This document shows, in pieces, positions 12,371-42,351 of a stretch of 42,351 bases of DNA. The stretch is from the IMG/VR virus record IMGVR_UViG_3300036770_004313, positions 1-42,351 of that record. One strand, given 5' to 3'. The position numbers and the translations under genes are program-made. This DNA is from a virus. Numbering within the stretch: position 1 is the stretch's first letter; each line of letters begins with the position of its first letter. The notes under the pieces are model-generated. The model did not search any database, was not told the DNA's origin, and worked only from the letters and a program-made list of their open reading frames with translations.

Positions 12371-13237
12371 CTACGTTTTGACCCTCGGAGCCTTGGGCTT
12401 GAGAATCTTGATTGTGTCTTGGGTCTCCTGATCCGTGGCCGTCAGGAGCAAAGGCTTCAGCCTCGCGTAAGCCGCGGGGTCCGAGGTCTTGAGAGCTTCG
12501 ATTGCGCCAACCATGTGCAGCGCGGCCTTCTCCTTCGCGTCGTGCGCCTCCTTGGCCACGACGCCAGCAGCGTCTTTCACCTCCGGGATGATGCGCATGA
12601 TAATCTTCCCGGGGAGTGCCAGGATGCCGGCGAAGATGGAGGTAAGCGGGGCGAACGCGGGGAAGGCGACGGACAGCAGCTTCGCGCCGATGGGCAGCAC
12701 GATGGCCAGCCCGATGCACCCGCCACCGATCCACAGCCACCGTTTGATCCCGCGCCAAGTGTCAGCCTCGGAGGCGAAGGAAAGGAAGCGGTCGTCTCGG
12801 GCGTCCTCGGCCTTGCCCTTCTCGCGCTGGATGCCGTCCATGCGCTTCTGGAGTCCGGCAACCTGCCCATCGATCCGAGCCAGAGCCTCGCGGGATGCAC
12901 GCTGCTCCTCCACGAGCGGGGAGAGCGCACCGCGCACGATGTTCTCCATTGTCACGGCGTCCTGATACCGAGGGGCACCAAGGACCGTCTCCGCACGGGT
13001 GTTCAGGTCGTACGCCAGCGACACGGCTGGCGTGCGGTTCGTCTCGGCGGCGAGAGCGCGCCCGGTTCCATGCACGAACGCGGCCGCCTTCTCGACCTGG
13101 GCGACGCGATTGCTTGCGCCAGCCTCGTCGGCACGCTGGACACGATCCAGCGCCTTGTCCGCGCTCTTCCGAGCGGAGAAGCAGCCGGCCAGCACGAGAG
13201 CCGCGGAGGCTACGGAGATGGTCAATGTCCATTTCAC
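12371..13237 (-). CDS. Lipoprotein with inner-membrane segments; candidate unimolecular spanin
   Basis: Translation from GTG 13237 (overlapping the upstream stop as GTGA) gives 288 aa. Residues 1-19 form a lipoprotein signal ending in a lipobox (LVLAGC, Cys19). Residues 20-165 are a long charged, helical periplasmic-type region. Two hydrophobic stretches (about 167-185 and 187-208) follow, then a basic helical tail. An outer-membrane lipid anchor plus a membrane segment joined by a coiled periplasmic part is the plan of u-spanins such as T1 gp11, which fuse outer and inner membranes in lysis. The neighbouring holin-like ORF supports this. The longer frame upstream overlaps that ORF and is not used. 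Alternatives are a tail or superinfection lipoprotein. Confidence 0.5.
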   Translation of the reverse strand: MKWTLTISVASAALVLAGCFSARKSADKALDRVQRADEAGASNRVAQVEKAAAFVHGTGRALAAETNRTPAVSLAYDLNTRAETVLGAPRYQDAVTMENIVRGALSPLVEEQRASREALARIDGQVAGLQKRMDGIQREKGKAEDARDDRFLSFASEADTWRGIKRWLWIGGGCIGLAIVLPIGAKLLSVAFPAFAPLTSIFAGILALPGKIIMRIIPEVKDAAGVVAKEAHDAKEKAALHMVGAIEALKTSDPAAYARLKPLLLTATDQETQDTIKILKPKAPRVKT

Positions 13238-13746
13238 TCCAGCACCCCCGCTTTCGTCATGATCGGATCGGAGGCGTCGGAAGCCGATTGCAGTCTCCGC
13301 GTGTAGACCGGAAGACCCTGACCGGCCTGCCTCACGGGTTGCCACAAGTCGACCTCCGACACCAATCCGGGACCGGCGTCTCGGCCTTTGCGGACGAGCC
13401 GGTAAATCTGGCCGTCCGATGCCCGGACGGTGGTTTGATCCTGGACCTCTTCCGGAACCGGCGTTGCGCGAGGTCCGGAGGGCGAGCACGCGGAAAGGAT
13501 CACGGCGCACAGGACGCACGCGATGAAGACGACGGCTGGCATCTGCACGCCGGTCTTCCGGTCGCCGTCCTTGCGCCCTCGCCACAGCTTCCACACGGAC
13601 AGCGCGGTTGCGATCAGGGAAAGCAACAACACCATCAGGCGCAACCACTGCTCAATCGCAGGCAGCAGGCTGGTGATGGTTCCAAGCATTCCAACGGACA
13701 GGCCAAGGCCTCCGTGGGTCAACGTGTGTTTCGCGTCTTCGTTCAC
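13234..13746 (-). CDS. Holin-like protein fused in frame to a lipoprotein (o-spanin-like) module
   Basis: This 170-aa ORF has two parts. Residues 1-60 hold two hydrophobic segments (about 13-30 and 35-53) and end in a basic KLWRGRKDGDRK tail, as in small holins. Residues 69-87 form a second signal sequence ending in a lipobox (VILSAC, Cys87), followed by an 80-residue soluble region. Met69 (13542-13540) could start a separate 102-aa lipoprotein. No stop separates the parts, so either one fused protein or two products from one frame are made. GTG 13746 overlaps the tail-terminator stop (GTGA). Lysis function is inferred from topology and adjacency to the spanin candidate. Confidence 0.5.
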   Translation of the reverse strand: MNEDAKHTLTHGGLGLSVGMLGTITSLLPAIEQWLRLMVLLLSLIATALSVWKLWRGRKDGDRKTGVQMPAVVFIACVLCAVILSACSPSGPRATPVPEEVQDQTTVRASDGQIYRLVRKGRDAGPGLVSEVDLWQPVRQAGQGLPVYTRRLQSASDASDPIMTKAGVLE

Positions 13747-14237
13747 TGCGGGTCCTTATTGGTCGGGGTGATAAAGCACTTCACTCGGAAGAAGACTGCG
13801 GCTTGCCGCGCCCCGTTGTTGAACTCTGGACCCCAGAAGCCGTCGTATCGGAACGGGGTGAACGGAGCGTCACTGTTCGGGCTGTTCGGTGCGGACACGT
13901 TCGGGCGCCCGGAGATGCCTTCGCGAATCAGCCGGATGGCCTTCTCGCACGAAACCCCGGTTCCAGCCGCGGACCGGTTCAGCTTCACGTTCTCCTCGAT
14001 GAGGACGTCGAGGATGATCTCTTCGGCGGCGAACCCGCTTCGCACTGAGTCGGTCAGCTCATCAAACCGGATCGGCATGATGATGATGCAGACACCCTTT
14101 GTCCGAAGGTACTCCTCCCGGCCGTCCACCTTCGGGTAGGTCCCGTCATCCAACAGCACGGGCACGCCGGACGAACTCACCTCGAAGATTCGGGAGATTG
14201 CGGCGAACGCGTTGGTCTGGATGTCCTCCAAGTTCAT
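13743..14237 (-). CDS. Putative tail terminator protein
   Basis: This 164-aa protein occupies the slot between head-tail connector genes and the tail tube where the tail terminator (lambda gpU / HK97 gp10 neighbour) resides. It begins with an amphipathic helix (NLEDIQTNAFAAISRIF), followed by alternating strands including GVCIIIMPIRFDELT and AEEIILDVLIEENVKLNRS, consistent with the alpha/beta terminator fold. A less conserved loop with PNVSAPNSPNS precedes the last strand. Start 14237 overlaps the preceding stop (ATGA). The function is positional inference; sequence motifs are weak. Confidence 0.55.
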   Translation of the reverse strand: MNLEDIQTNAFAAISRIFEVSSSGVPVLLDDGTYPKVDGREEYLRTKGVCIIIMPIRFDELTDSVRSGFAAEEIILDVLIEENVKLNRSAAGTGVSCEKAIRLIREGISGRPNVSAPNSPNSDAPFTPFRYDGFWGPEFNNGARQAAVFFRVKCFITPTNKDPQ

Positions 14238-35465: not shown

Positions 35466-35653
35466 GCTGCACCTCCCCGCTTCTGGATGTTGCGACGGCG
35501 GCGAGCATCTCGGACCTGTGTCCGGTATGATTTGCGCTCCGGGAACCTGACGGACCTAGACTCGGTGCGCGGAGCGAGCGCGAACAGTTGCGGAACCTTG
35601 AAAAGCTCGCCACCCATCGCGAGCGCCATCGTTGCGGCAATAGCTGGATTCAC
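35462..35653 (-). CDS. Small basic hypothetical protein
   Basis: This 63-aa protein starts with a hydrophobic MNPAIAATMALAMGG and has a very basic C-terminus (RTQVRDARRRRNIQKRGG). GTG 35653 overlaps the RecT stop and its own stop overlaps the next GTG, so it is coupled on both sides. No family was recognised. Confidence 0.55.
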   Translation of the reverse strand: MNPAIAATMALAMGGELFKVPQLFALAPRTESRSVRFPERKSYRTQVRDARRRRNIQKRGGAA

Positions 35654-36762
35654 TGGGCACCGCCTTCCTTGAGCCGCTTGGCCTGCTTGACGAAGTTGTC
35701 GAGCGACCGCAACAGCCGGTCGCACATGGGTTCGGCCAGCTCGCCGAATGAGGTCTCGACGACATCCTGCCCGCGGCTGTCCAAGAACTTGACCAGACCG
35801 TCGAAGTCCACACCTGCCGCCAGAAACGCCTTCTGAATCTTCTCCCGCTTCGCATCCAGCTCCGTCTGTGGCGGTGCGCCAGTGGTCGATTGGGGCGCGG
35901 GATCCGCCTGAACGGGTGCAGGGAAGGGGACGGTGCCAGACGCGTCCGTAGGGGCAGCCTGAGGCGCGGGAGCGGGTGCCTGTGTTGGTGCCGGCGTTGG
36001 ATCTGGAGCGGTAAACTTCGGAGCTTTGGCCGGGAGTTGCGGGCGCTGCGTTGCAGCCTCAATCTGCCCCTCTTCGCCAGCCTCACCTTCGGGCATGATG
36101 TTGCCCGTCATCTGCTCGTAGCACCGCTTCAGGAATTTGCGGGTGGCCTTGCCGAGGAGTTGGTCGGCTCCGCTGAAGTCATCGCTCTTGACCGGGATGG
36201 ATGCCTTCAGCGTCTGCGGTTTCCCGTCGTGGAACCACGTACCTTCGCACTCGATAATGACGCCCCCCGGCTTGTTTCCCGGGACGCCCAGGCTGACCTT
36301 GAAGTCGGTGATGTGCTTCAACCCGCGGATGAGGAACTCGAAGCCTTCCTTCGTGCAGTAGGTCCGGCCGCTGATGATGTTCCATTGATTGCCGACCAAC
36401 TGGAGCCCGCGCAGCCCGGCCTCGATCGCGCAGTCTTTTACCACGTCGTACGGGTACGGCTGGTTATACTCCCCGGTCTTCCGGTTCTTGGTCTTCGGGT
36501 CCTTATCGGTCCGGAACCCGATCGCGCTGTCTTGGAGCGCAATGATGCGGGCCTTGATTGCCGGATCATCAAACAGCCGGCGAAGGCTCTCCATGCTCTC
36601 CGCCACCTGAAGGGCAGCGATGATGTTGCCCGACGATCCGGAGCCGAACGCGGCCATTGCCGCTTCGTTCGCCTGCTGGATCGCCAGGGCGGTGTCCTCA
36701 CTCACCGGGGCCATCCCGGTCTGAACCGGGCCTCTTCTTCTCGTCAATTCCTGTGTACTCAT
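35650..36762 (-). CDS. RecT-type single-strand annealing protein
   Basis: This 370-aa protein has a conserved core at about residues 45-230 (DCAIEAGLRGLQLVGNQWNI, YCTKEGFEFLIRGLK, then KATRKFLKRCYEQMTG), resembling RecT/ERF-like annealers. A long Pro/Ala/Gln-rich linker (about 235-305) leads to a C-terminal helical domain. It pairs with the RecE-type exonuclease for end joining and recombination. ATG 36762 lacks a Shine-Dalgarno sequence; the leader ends CAGAAGACCC-ATG and recurs upstream of 34605. Confidence 0.78.
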   Translation of the reverse strand: MSTQELTRRRGPVQTGMAPVSEDTALAIQQANEAAMAAFGSGSSGNIIAALQVAESMESLRRLFDDPAIKARIIALQDSAIGFRTDKDPKTKNRKTGEYNQPYPYDVVKDCAIEAGLRGLQLVGNQWNIISGRTYCTKEGFEFLIRGLKHITDFKVSLGVPGNKPGGVIIECEGTWFHDGKPQTLKASIPVKSDDFSGADQLLGKATRKFLKRCYEQMTGNIMPEGEAGEEGQIEAATQRPQLPAKAPKFTAPDPTPAPTQAPAPAPQAAPTDASGTVPFPAPVQADPAPQSTTGAPPQTELDAKREKIQKAFLAAGVDFDGLVKFLDSRGQDVVETSFGELAEPMCDRLLRSLDNFVKQAKRLKEGGAQ

Positions 36763-37163: not shown

Positions 37164-37235
37164 TGGTTGCGGGGCCGGGATTCGAACCCGGTGAGGTGGG
37201 CGTATGAAACCGACCTGCGTCCAACGCTCCCCGCC
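37164..37235 (-). tRNA. Degenerate initiator-type tRNA-Met (CAU) gene
   Basis: The 72-nt sequence folds with acceptor GGCGGGG/CCCCGCA (pairs 2-7 intact, position 1 unpaired with A72, as in initiator tRNA) and an encoded CCA end. The T-arm CCGGG-TTCGAAT-CCCGG is perfect. The anticodon arm TCGGT-TTCATAC-GCCCA carries CAU (37206-37204) after U33 and before A37. The 3' half matches bacterial tRNA-fMet closely. Oddities are a short D-arm (GCGT-TGG-ACGC), a C-C mismatch and a T-G pair in the anticodon stem. Function is uncertain; it may be a relic or a modified initiator. Confidence 0.6.
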
Positions 37236-37358: not shown

Positions 37359-37586
37359 TCACGCGAAGAAGCCTTTCCCCGTGGACTGAATCCAGCGGTC
37401 GAGTTCCTCGCGGAAGAAGACGAGTTCCCGCCCGATCTTGCGGTGGGGAATGGCGCTCTGGCGCACCCGGTACCGGAACGTGCGTTCGGGCATGGGCTGG
37501 CCGTCCTCGCGCAACAGCTTCCCCAGGTAGGCCCGGGTCGAGGCGGCGGACATCGGCGTCAAAACCAGCTTGGGGTTCTGAGTCAC
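37359..37586 (-). CDS. Excisionase-like / MerR-type HTH protein
   Basis: This 75-aa protein has MSAASTRAYLGKLLREDGQP followed by ERTFRYRVRQSAIPHRKIGR and ELVFFREELDRWI. The last blocks match the HTH_17 excisionase pattern, in which a P-H-R-K-I-G-R turn and a W-I end form the wing. It may direct excision with the integrase or regulate early genes. GTG 37586 overlaps the preceding stop. Between it and the tRNA-like gene (37236-37358) I see no feature. Confidence 0.7.
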   Translation of the reverse strand: MTQNPKLVLTPMSAASTRAYLGKLLREDGQPMPERTFRYRVRQSAIPHRKIGRELVFFREELDRWIQSTGKGFFA

Positions 37587-37783
37587 AAGCCGCTCCTTTC
37601 CATCTGGCGCAGGCGAAGCCCGCGCTCCTTCACCAACTCGTTCCACAGATCGGTGCAGCGGGCCTCTGCCAAGAGGCGTGCCCGTTGCTGCCTTCCAGCC
37701 TCCCGGGCGAACCAAAGAGCCATGACCCATCCGAGCAGGGCCACAAAGGCGACGGAGGCGATGGACAGGATCAAAGCGTTCAC
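37583..37783 (-). CDS. Small membrane protein
   Basis: This 66-aa protein has one hydrophobic segment (about residues 3-24, ALILSIASVAFVALLGWVMA), then a basic amphipathic tail (REAGRQQRARLLAEARCTDL). GTG 37783 overlaps the preceding stop as GTGA. Topology suggests a single-pass inner-membrane protein with cytosolic tail; the function is unknown. Confidence 0.6.
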   Translation of the reverse strand: MNALILSIASVAFVALLGWVMALWFAREAGRQQRARLLAEARCTDLWNELVKERGLRLRQMERSGL

Positions 37784-41066: not shown

Positions 41067-41075
41067 CACATACGC
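41056..41075. promoter_or_regulatory. Operator dyad over the -35 box
   Basis: GCGTATG (41056-41062) and CATACGC (41069-41075) are perfect inverted 7-bp arms around TCAACA. The dyad covers the consensus -35 hexamer and touches the integrase stop codon, so a repressor bound here would block the promoter. Confidence 0.7.
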
Positions 41076-42253
41076 TAAAGAATTCCGCGCACCGTGCCGA
41101 ACCACGCCTCCGCCTGCTCCCTCCCCGCTACGGCCCGGTAGTGCCGGAAGATCATGCCGGGGCTGTTCCCCATCTCCAGCGCAACCTTCGCCTCGTCCTC
41201 GACGATGGCCATTCGATAGGTACCGAACGAGTGCCGGAGCCCGTTGTGGACCCACTTCACGCCAGCCTTCTTCGACAACGCCGTCAGCGGCTTCTGGAGC
41301 CCGTACCAGTCGCAGACCCGGCCGGTGCTCCGGATCGGTTCCAGCCATGACGACAGGGCACGGAGGACCGGCACAAACCGCCTCTGCCTGGTCTTCGAGT
41401 TCTCGGCCCGGACGTTGACGTGGGTCGGTTGGACGTCTTCCCAGTTCAACCGCTGGATCTCCGCCGTACGCAATCCGGCGAATGCCCCGAGGGCAAGGAA
41501 AGCCACCATGCGGGGATCTTGCGCGGCGCCGAGGAGGTCCTGCAGCTCCTTCGGGGTGAAGATCCGGACGTGGGCAATGGTGCGGGCCAGCTCGATGCCG
41601 GACAGGTCCAGAAACCCCTTGGGCAGGTACCCGCGGCGTTCCGACCAGTGAACGAGGGAGGAAACCGAGCCAACGAAGTTCCGCTGGGTCCGCGGGGATA
41701 CGTGGAGGCTCCGCACCCATGTCTCCACCTGGCGGGCGGTGACCAGCGACAGGGGGACCCGGAATGCGCCGGCAAACCGATCCAACCGCTTCCGGAGGTC
41801 GTCGACGTGCGCCTTCGACCGTCCGGCCTGCTCCTTGGCCGCCACGAACTCCTTCACCACCTCGGCGACGGGTGGGGCGTCCGCGGGCGTTCGGTCACCC
41901 CATGCGCGGCATGCCTCGAGAACTTGGCCGCCCGACAACCTTCGCCCCTCTGACAGTTCGGCGGCCGCCGTGTCGATCGGCTCGTCACCGAGGATCTGGC
42001 GGGCGCGTTGGTAGGCGATCAAGGCGTCCCCGGTCAGCGTCAGGGAGGTGGAGCCCAGGCGCGAGATGCCCCGGGCAATCTGGCGGGCGTGTGCGCGAGC
42101 CTTCGAGGGATCGGCAAAAGCCTTGCGGCATCGTTTCTCGCCTTCGTACCAGACGACGGTGTGGAGATGGCCGTTCGTCCGCTCCACCCGGTAGATGGCG
42201 ATCGAAACCGACCCGTCTTTGATGACCTCCCACGGCTTGCCCATGGGGTGCAT
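41075..42253 (-). CDS. int: Tyrosine-family integrase
   Basis: In the C-terminal catalytic domain of this 392-aa protein, Arg262 lies in GLRTAEIQRLNWEDV, Lys287 in ENSKTRQRRFVP, Arg340 in HNGLRHSFGTY and nucleophile Tyr372 in FRHYRA. The HxxR His position is Asn337 and the usual GHS His is Asn363 (GNSP), a variant typical of a verrucomicrobial-type group. An N-terminal SAM-like core-binding domain spans about 125-210, and an N-terminal arm-binding part precedes it. ATG 42253 (or 42244) lies right at the 97-bp repeat, beside the tmRNA-like core that it should recombine. Confidence 0.93.
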   Translation of the reverse strand: MHPMGKPWEVIKDGSVSIAIYRVERTNGHLHTVVWYEGEKRCRKAFADPSKARAHARQIARGISRLGSTSLTLTGDALIAYQRARQILGDEPIDTAAAELSEGRRLSGGQVLEACRAWGDRTPADAPPVAEVVKEFVAAKEQAGRSKAHVDDLRKRLDRFAGAFRVPLSLVTARQVETWVRSLHVSPRTQRNFVGSVSSLVHWSERRGYLPKGFLDLSGIELARTIAHVRIFTPKELQDLLGAAQDPRMVAFLALGAFAGLRTAEIQRLNWEDVQPTHVNVRAENSKTRQRRFVPVLRALSSWLEPIRSTGRVCDWYGLQKPLTALSKKAGVKWVHNGLRHSFGTYRMAIVEDEAKVALEMGNSPGMIFRHYRAVAGREQAEAWFGTVRGIL

Positions 42254-42254
42254 T

Positions 42255-42351
42255 CTGTGCCGAGTTGTCGACTTTCTGTCGACTCGGAACGGAATCCTCG
42301 AATTTCCGGGGAAAGAACGGTGGAGGCGGGGGGAGTTGAACCCGGTGCTGT
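42255..42351. repeat. 97-bp terminal direct repeat, right copy
   Basis: Identical to 1-97. It lies just upstream of the integrase start on the minus strand, with the tmRNA-like core at 42319-42343. As in the left copy, the T-stem preceding GGGTTC cannot pair fully, which argues that this is phage attP sequence and not a restored host gene end. Confidence 0.95.

Follow-up and report, generated by a model that had tools for sequence, protein, structure and literature searches.

Introduction

The systems closest to the element described here are the bacterial initiator tRNAs, the tRNA-Met genes of cultured bacteriophages and the delta-N tRNA-Pyl. Bacterial tRNA-fMet carries the CAU anticodon with U33 and A37, an open or weak 1:72 end, a canonical T-arm, and usually A73 and an encoded CCA; one published account (PMC5143459) states that initiator genes often encode CCA. 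The compact phage tRNAs considered below share these features, and in them G18G19 lies as far from U33, and A37 as far from the T-loop, as in tRNA-fMet. They differ in length (72 nt against 75–77 nt in the host), in the non-canonical geometry of the D-arm (4 bp and a 3-nt loop, with a 1-nt linker) and in an extended anticodon stem that often lacks the three consecutive G:C pairs. Phage-borne CAU tRNAs are also found in cultured phages, e.g., Xanthomonas PB119 and Pseudomonas Milchi, but the tRNA-Met genes checked fit our covariance model of the compact tRNAs only with insertions in the D-arm (40.9–55.4 bits). In the literature searched there was almost nothing on phages that supply their own initiator tRNA, and a phage initiator tRNA with an altered D-arm was not described there, which is weak evidence as this literature lay mostly outside subscription journals.

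The delta-N tRNA-Pyl, in which the D-loop is shortened and U8 is mostly absent, is active in E. coli (PMC11467909), so a shortened D-loop and a missing U8 are compatible with translation. It shares with the compact tRNAs the short-loop compact D-arm, the reduced linker between the acceptor stem and the D-arm and the irregular anticodon stem, whereas the anticodon is CUA in tRNA-Pyl and CAU in the compact family. Pairing with pyrrolysine was considered for this architecture and rejected because of the CAU anticodon and because PylS/PylRS above the curated cut-off was found in none of the eight genomes carrying the compact family (and in one of 14 control genomes).

Here we analyse a tRNA gene in a viral sequence of 42,351 nt (IMG/VR record IMGVR_UViG_3300036770_004313), the whole of which is referred to as the window.

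Results

ARAGORN calls a tRNA-Met(cat) at 37164–37235 of the window on the minus strand, to which all the coordinates of its parts given below also refer. The minimum-energy fold of the 72-mer is a full cloverleaf. The acceptor stem has 6 bp; positions 1–7 of its 5' strand lie at 37229–37235, with G1 (37235) unpaired opposite A72 (37168), and the 3' side (37164–37174) consists of CCCCGC, A72, the discriminator A73 and the encoded CCA. A single linker base, A8 (37228), leads into the mini D-arm (37217–37227), where GCGU and ACGC enclose a UGG loop (37221–37223). The extended anticodon arm (37194–37216), AGGUCGGU-UUCAUAC-GCCCACCU, carries U33, the anticodon CAU (37204–37206) and A37 in its loop and has a C.C mismatch at 28:42 and a U.G at 31:39 in its stem; two bases separate it from the T-arm (37175–37191), CCGGG-UUCGAAU-CCCGG. 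These assignments follow the fold, together with the family alignment for the acceptor 5' strand and the anticodon arm and with the D-stem covariation of the family for the D-arm. An earlier, sequence-only reading had noticed the unpaired 1-72 position, the CCA, the perfect T-arm, the CAU with U33/A37 and the imperfect anticodon stem, all of which are present in the fold. It had also described the D-arm as truncated; the arm is indeed short, but it is a clean hairpin of 4 bp with a 3-nt loop and not a ragged one.

The folding energy (z = −1.78, with 10 of 200 shuffles equally stable) is unremarkable and not diagnostic alone, and the Rfam tRNA model (RF00005) leaves the gene unmatched even at E = 10, i.e., below the gathering cut-off. 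As neither singles out the window tRNA, homology was needed. In a leave-one-out covariance model, built from the family with the window copy excluded, the gene scores 79.7 bits (E 8.5e-21) and is thus significant by homology, which together with the ARAGORN call makes the tRNA-like gene proposed at this place a real one; covariance scoring, previously suggested as a check, failed with the Rfam model and succeeded with that of the family. The sequence pattern of the window tRNA had no matches across 100 shuffles of the window.

The starting point for assembling the family was a terminase search. It turned up a related phage (G017), whose counterpart of the window tRNA at c31812–31883 differs in its stems and agrees in geometry, and viral contigs were then scanned for the spacing pattern. 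Besides ordinary initiator tRNAs, the first scan yielded a separate group with the acceptor start about 3–4 nt later; together with a sharper pattern it gave at least 35 distinct 72-nt members, normal-length genes being set aside. The 35 gapless members that were aligned come from viral contigs and Verrucomicrobiota genomes. Two pattern hits (L135 and L146) were dropped because a normal acceptor start fits both, and an exact 17-mer match (L002) was rejected as there is no tRNA there. In blastn searches of cultured phages the matches were to the T-arms of longer tRNA-Met genes and to other short stretches. Since the relatives were fetched via CAU patterns, CAU, U33/A37 and some D-arm bases are imposed by the search; the pattern fixed G10 and C25, restricted positions 13 and 22 and left two D-stem pairs free.

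The common architecture comprises a 1-nt acceptor/D linker, a 4-bp D-stem, a 3-nt YGG D-loop, an extended anticodon stem (6 bp in the consensus) and a normal T-arm, with CCA encoded in 23 of the 35 members. Both free D-stem pairs are present in 34 of 34 sequences and occur as ten different combinations, against some 34% expected for random partners. All four stems covary: 91% of the helix cells are paired in the alignment, compared with 70% after shuffling and 39–51% after sliding, and there are 178 double-change cells as against 58 in the shuffled set. Judged by this alignment, the short D-arm is conserved as a feature of the family and covaries strongly among diverse phages, and the conservation of such a family in many uncultured phages argues that the odd shape is kept by selection. 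The gene is dispensable at a terminase identity of about 72%, as the terminase-closest relative of the window phage (G001) does not carry it. ARAGORN misses eight of the 35 members, and nine loci carrying other compact members are also unmatched by the Rfam tRNA model. At E 1e-13 our model matched in 9 of 388 Verrucomicrobiota genomes, some of these matches having a slightly longer D-loop. It matched in none of 296 genomes from a sample centred on Bacteroidota and in one of 398 from a sample centred on Pseudomonadota; this last match, although above the threshold, is a 75-nt normal initiator and was rejected as a family member.

Several variants were encountered. A second short-D-arm CAU form of 71 nt (L043, L066, L069, L073, L077, L109 and L120) scores 46–66 bits with the model, and two further 71-nt variants (L333:1501–1571 and L326:1501–1571) have a single G where the D-loop otherwise has GG (GGAATGTTCC). 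The anticodon is CAU in 42 of 46 compact tRNAs, these loci having themselves been fetched with CAU patterns, and two tRNA-like sequences of compact D-arm geometry (L200:3985–4056 and L215:5448–5519) have the anticodon TGC, so the compact shape may extend beyond CAU. In a prophage group of eight members, found in viral contigs and Verrucomicrobiota genomes (L061:4039–4110, L100, L165, L172, L190, L264, L281 and L314), 31:39 is never paired (C.U, U.C, A.C, C.A or C.C), which gives a 9-nt anticodon loop; position 38 is C, and all eight are missed by ARAGORN. The contig L061 also encodes a tRNA methyltransferase (13070–13789; PHROG 4752, 5.4e-75). Elsewhere the compact tRNA lies in frame within a protein ORF (L171:6251–7375, a 302-aa ORF in L216, L235:3698–4798, L244:8006–9136, L233:8906–9196 and L180:3694–4068), and the peptide encoded across it is like GAHTPASAGSTPAPAT; the L171 and L244 ORFs resemble each other, and the likely starts of these two are upstream of the tRNA.

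In ordinary tRNAs the GG of the D-loop contacts positions 55 and 56 of the T-loop, and the mini D-loop of the window type retains this GG. In the scans of viral contigs, AG at this place was accompanied by a T-loop UGC in 35 distinct sequences and by UUC in one, so that 35 of the 36 sequences with A18 have G55. GG with UUC gave at least 147 distinct matches (viral and genome scans taken together), and GG with UGC gave none in the scan of the whole collection. Among the compact members proper, six have AG with UGC and one AG with UUC. The predicted 18:55 contact thus covaries, A18.G55 taking the place of G18.U55. This speaks for continued docking of the mini D-loop on the T-loop, where it apparently makes both the 18:55 and the 19:56 contacts.

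The 1:72 position is mismatched in 21 of the 35 members, weak in 12 and G-C in two; a strong Watson–Crick pair is therefore lacking in 33 of them, as it is in the window copy (G1.A72). The commonest state, C1.A72, is also that of the Verrucomicrobiota host tRNA-fMet genes, the elongator-type CAU genes of the hosts being mostly G1-C72, and the initiator-like character suspected from the window alone thereby finds support at the family level. The other hallmark, G29-G30-G31:C39-C40-C41, is complete in only four of the 35 members; the window copy has G29-C41, G30-C40 and U31.G39, and the fMet genes looked at in hosts depart from the hallmark as well (A29-U41). With an open or weak 1:72 but so few complete sets of three G:C pairs, the family is by its acceptor-end sequence initiator-type, and one classical hallmark fails.

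The gene sits between tightly spaced genes of a prophage cassette and is the single tRNA gene that ARAGORN finds in the window phage. Its upstream neighbour (37359–37730, minus strand) has an excisionase-like HTH_17 domain in the C-terminal 76 aa (PHROG 1840, excisionase, 9.4e-6; the Pfam match, 24.8 bits, is just under the cut-off), and the downstream one (35650–36762, minus strand) encodes a 370-aa protein with no family match in PHROG and Pfam profile searches. This protein and exonuclease VIII had no relatives in the viral contigs, so the local synteny could not be traced; the genome position of the compact tRNA varies between phages. A tyrosine integrase (41075–42253, minus strand; PHROG 1, integrase, 8.1e-20; Pfam PF00589) lies beside a 97-bp terminal direct repeat (1–97 and 42255–42351), within which the minus-strand segments 66–89, attP-like, and 42320–42343 correspond to the 3' end of ssrA. 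The sequence GGGTTCAACTCCCCCCGCCTCCAC of this repeat is the ssrA 3' end in seven of seven Verrucomicrobiota matches, and the tmRNA gene of the host is the probable integration site of the phage. From these matches and from five compact genome matches, all in Verrucomicrobiota, we infer that the host is a member of this phylum. An SD-like motif precedes 10 of 39 assumed starts in the window versus 19% of internal control codons, so the earlier remark that many leaders are devoid of Shine–Dalgarno sequences holds roughly; the sequence-only reading had made it the premise for suggesting that a special initiator tRNA could favour phage translation.

Discussion

In our judgement the gene at 37164–37235 (minus strand) is probably a phage-encoded initiator-type tRNA that functions in a compact form maintained by selection. 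An elongator tRNA for Met or for Ile (AUA, with lysidine), supplied for codon compensation, would present the same anticodon, as CAU is common to fMet, elongator Met and Ile2, and some members do adjoin other tRNA-like sequences in their contigs. The absence of a strong 1:72 pair in 33 of 35 members, where G1-C72 prevails in the elongator-type CAU genes of the hosts, and the occurrence as a single gene in temperate phages such as the window phage nevertheless make such a function unlikely. A tRNA-shaped RNA that does not take part in translation but acts as a decoy or a regulator, for example as a tRNase bait or a processing signal of the operon mRNA, would agree with the location between tightly spaced cassette genes, or within ORFs in several contigs, and with the C.C mismatch in the anticodon stem of the window copy. 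A regulator, however, has no need of an open 1:72 end, the positions in the genomes vary among phages, and the CCA, U33, A37, T-arm and elbow contacts are all retained; we hold this to be quite unlikely.

The short D-arm, the imperfect anticodon stem and the poor Rfam score could also be taken for signs of decay in an initiator tRNA once captured from the host, a relic such as the sequence-only reading had considered. This is contradicted by the covariation at the family level, 35 sequences combining identical D-arm geometry with compensatory changes, and the relatives inspected showed no decay, so a relic appears very improbable. The 3' ends of tRNAs are often found in temperate phages, and with an excisionase-like gene as neighbour the element might be thought a tRNA fragment left at an old attachment site; yet the attP-like role is filled by the ssrA-like terminal repeat that adjoins the integrase, and the element itself is a complete tRNA whose D-arm does not resemble the host's. 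We give this last explanation hardly any credence.

A compact initiator-type tRNA would be charged by the host MetRS, recognised by the host formylase through the open 1:72 end and admitted to the P site at AUG starts, and the phage would thereby have its own initiator supply during infection. Host nucleases that cleave the anticodon loop of tRNA-fMet may moreover act poorly on the compact tRNA, given its altered D-arm and the differences in its anticodon loop (32, 38, 39 and 31:39). There is a precedent for phage tRNAs that evade tRNases (PMC10264068), which, along with the changes at 32, 38 and 39, suggests that the compact tRNA may resist such enzymes. Tentatively, and with considerable doubt, one may go further and propose that a dedicated initiator tRNA of compact form is common to uncultured phages, temperate phages of Verrucomicrobiota among them. 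Its D-arm would be minimal, its 18:55 elbow contact could be exchanged (G.U to A.G), and one prophage group would maintain the mismatch at 31:39. Such a tRNA would initiate viral translation when defence nucleases cut the host tRNA-fMet.

The tRNA content of phages is undercounted, since the Rfam tRNA model misses this class and ARAGORN a part of it. The compact family offers a natural example of a near-minimum D-arm that would still make the elbow, and of natural covariation in the 18:55 tertiary contact. Its members probably have a role in viral protein synthesis, and they provide a testable case of phages that may bring their own initiator tRNA.
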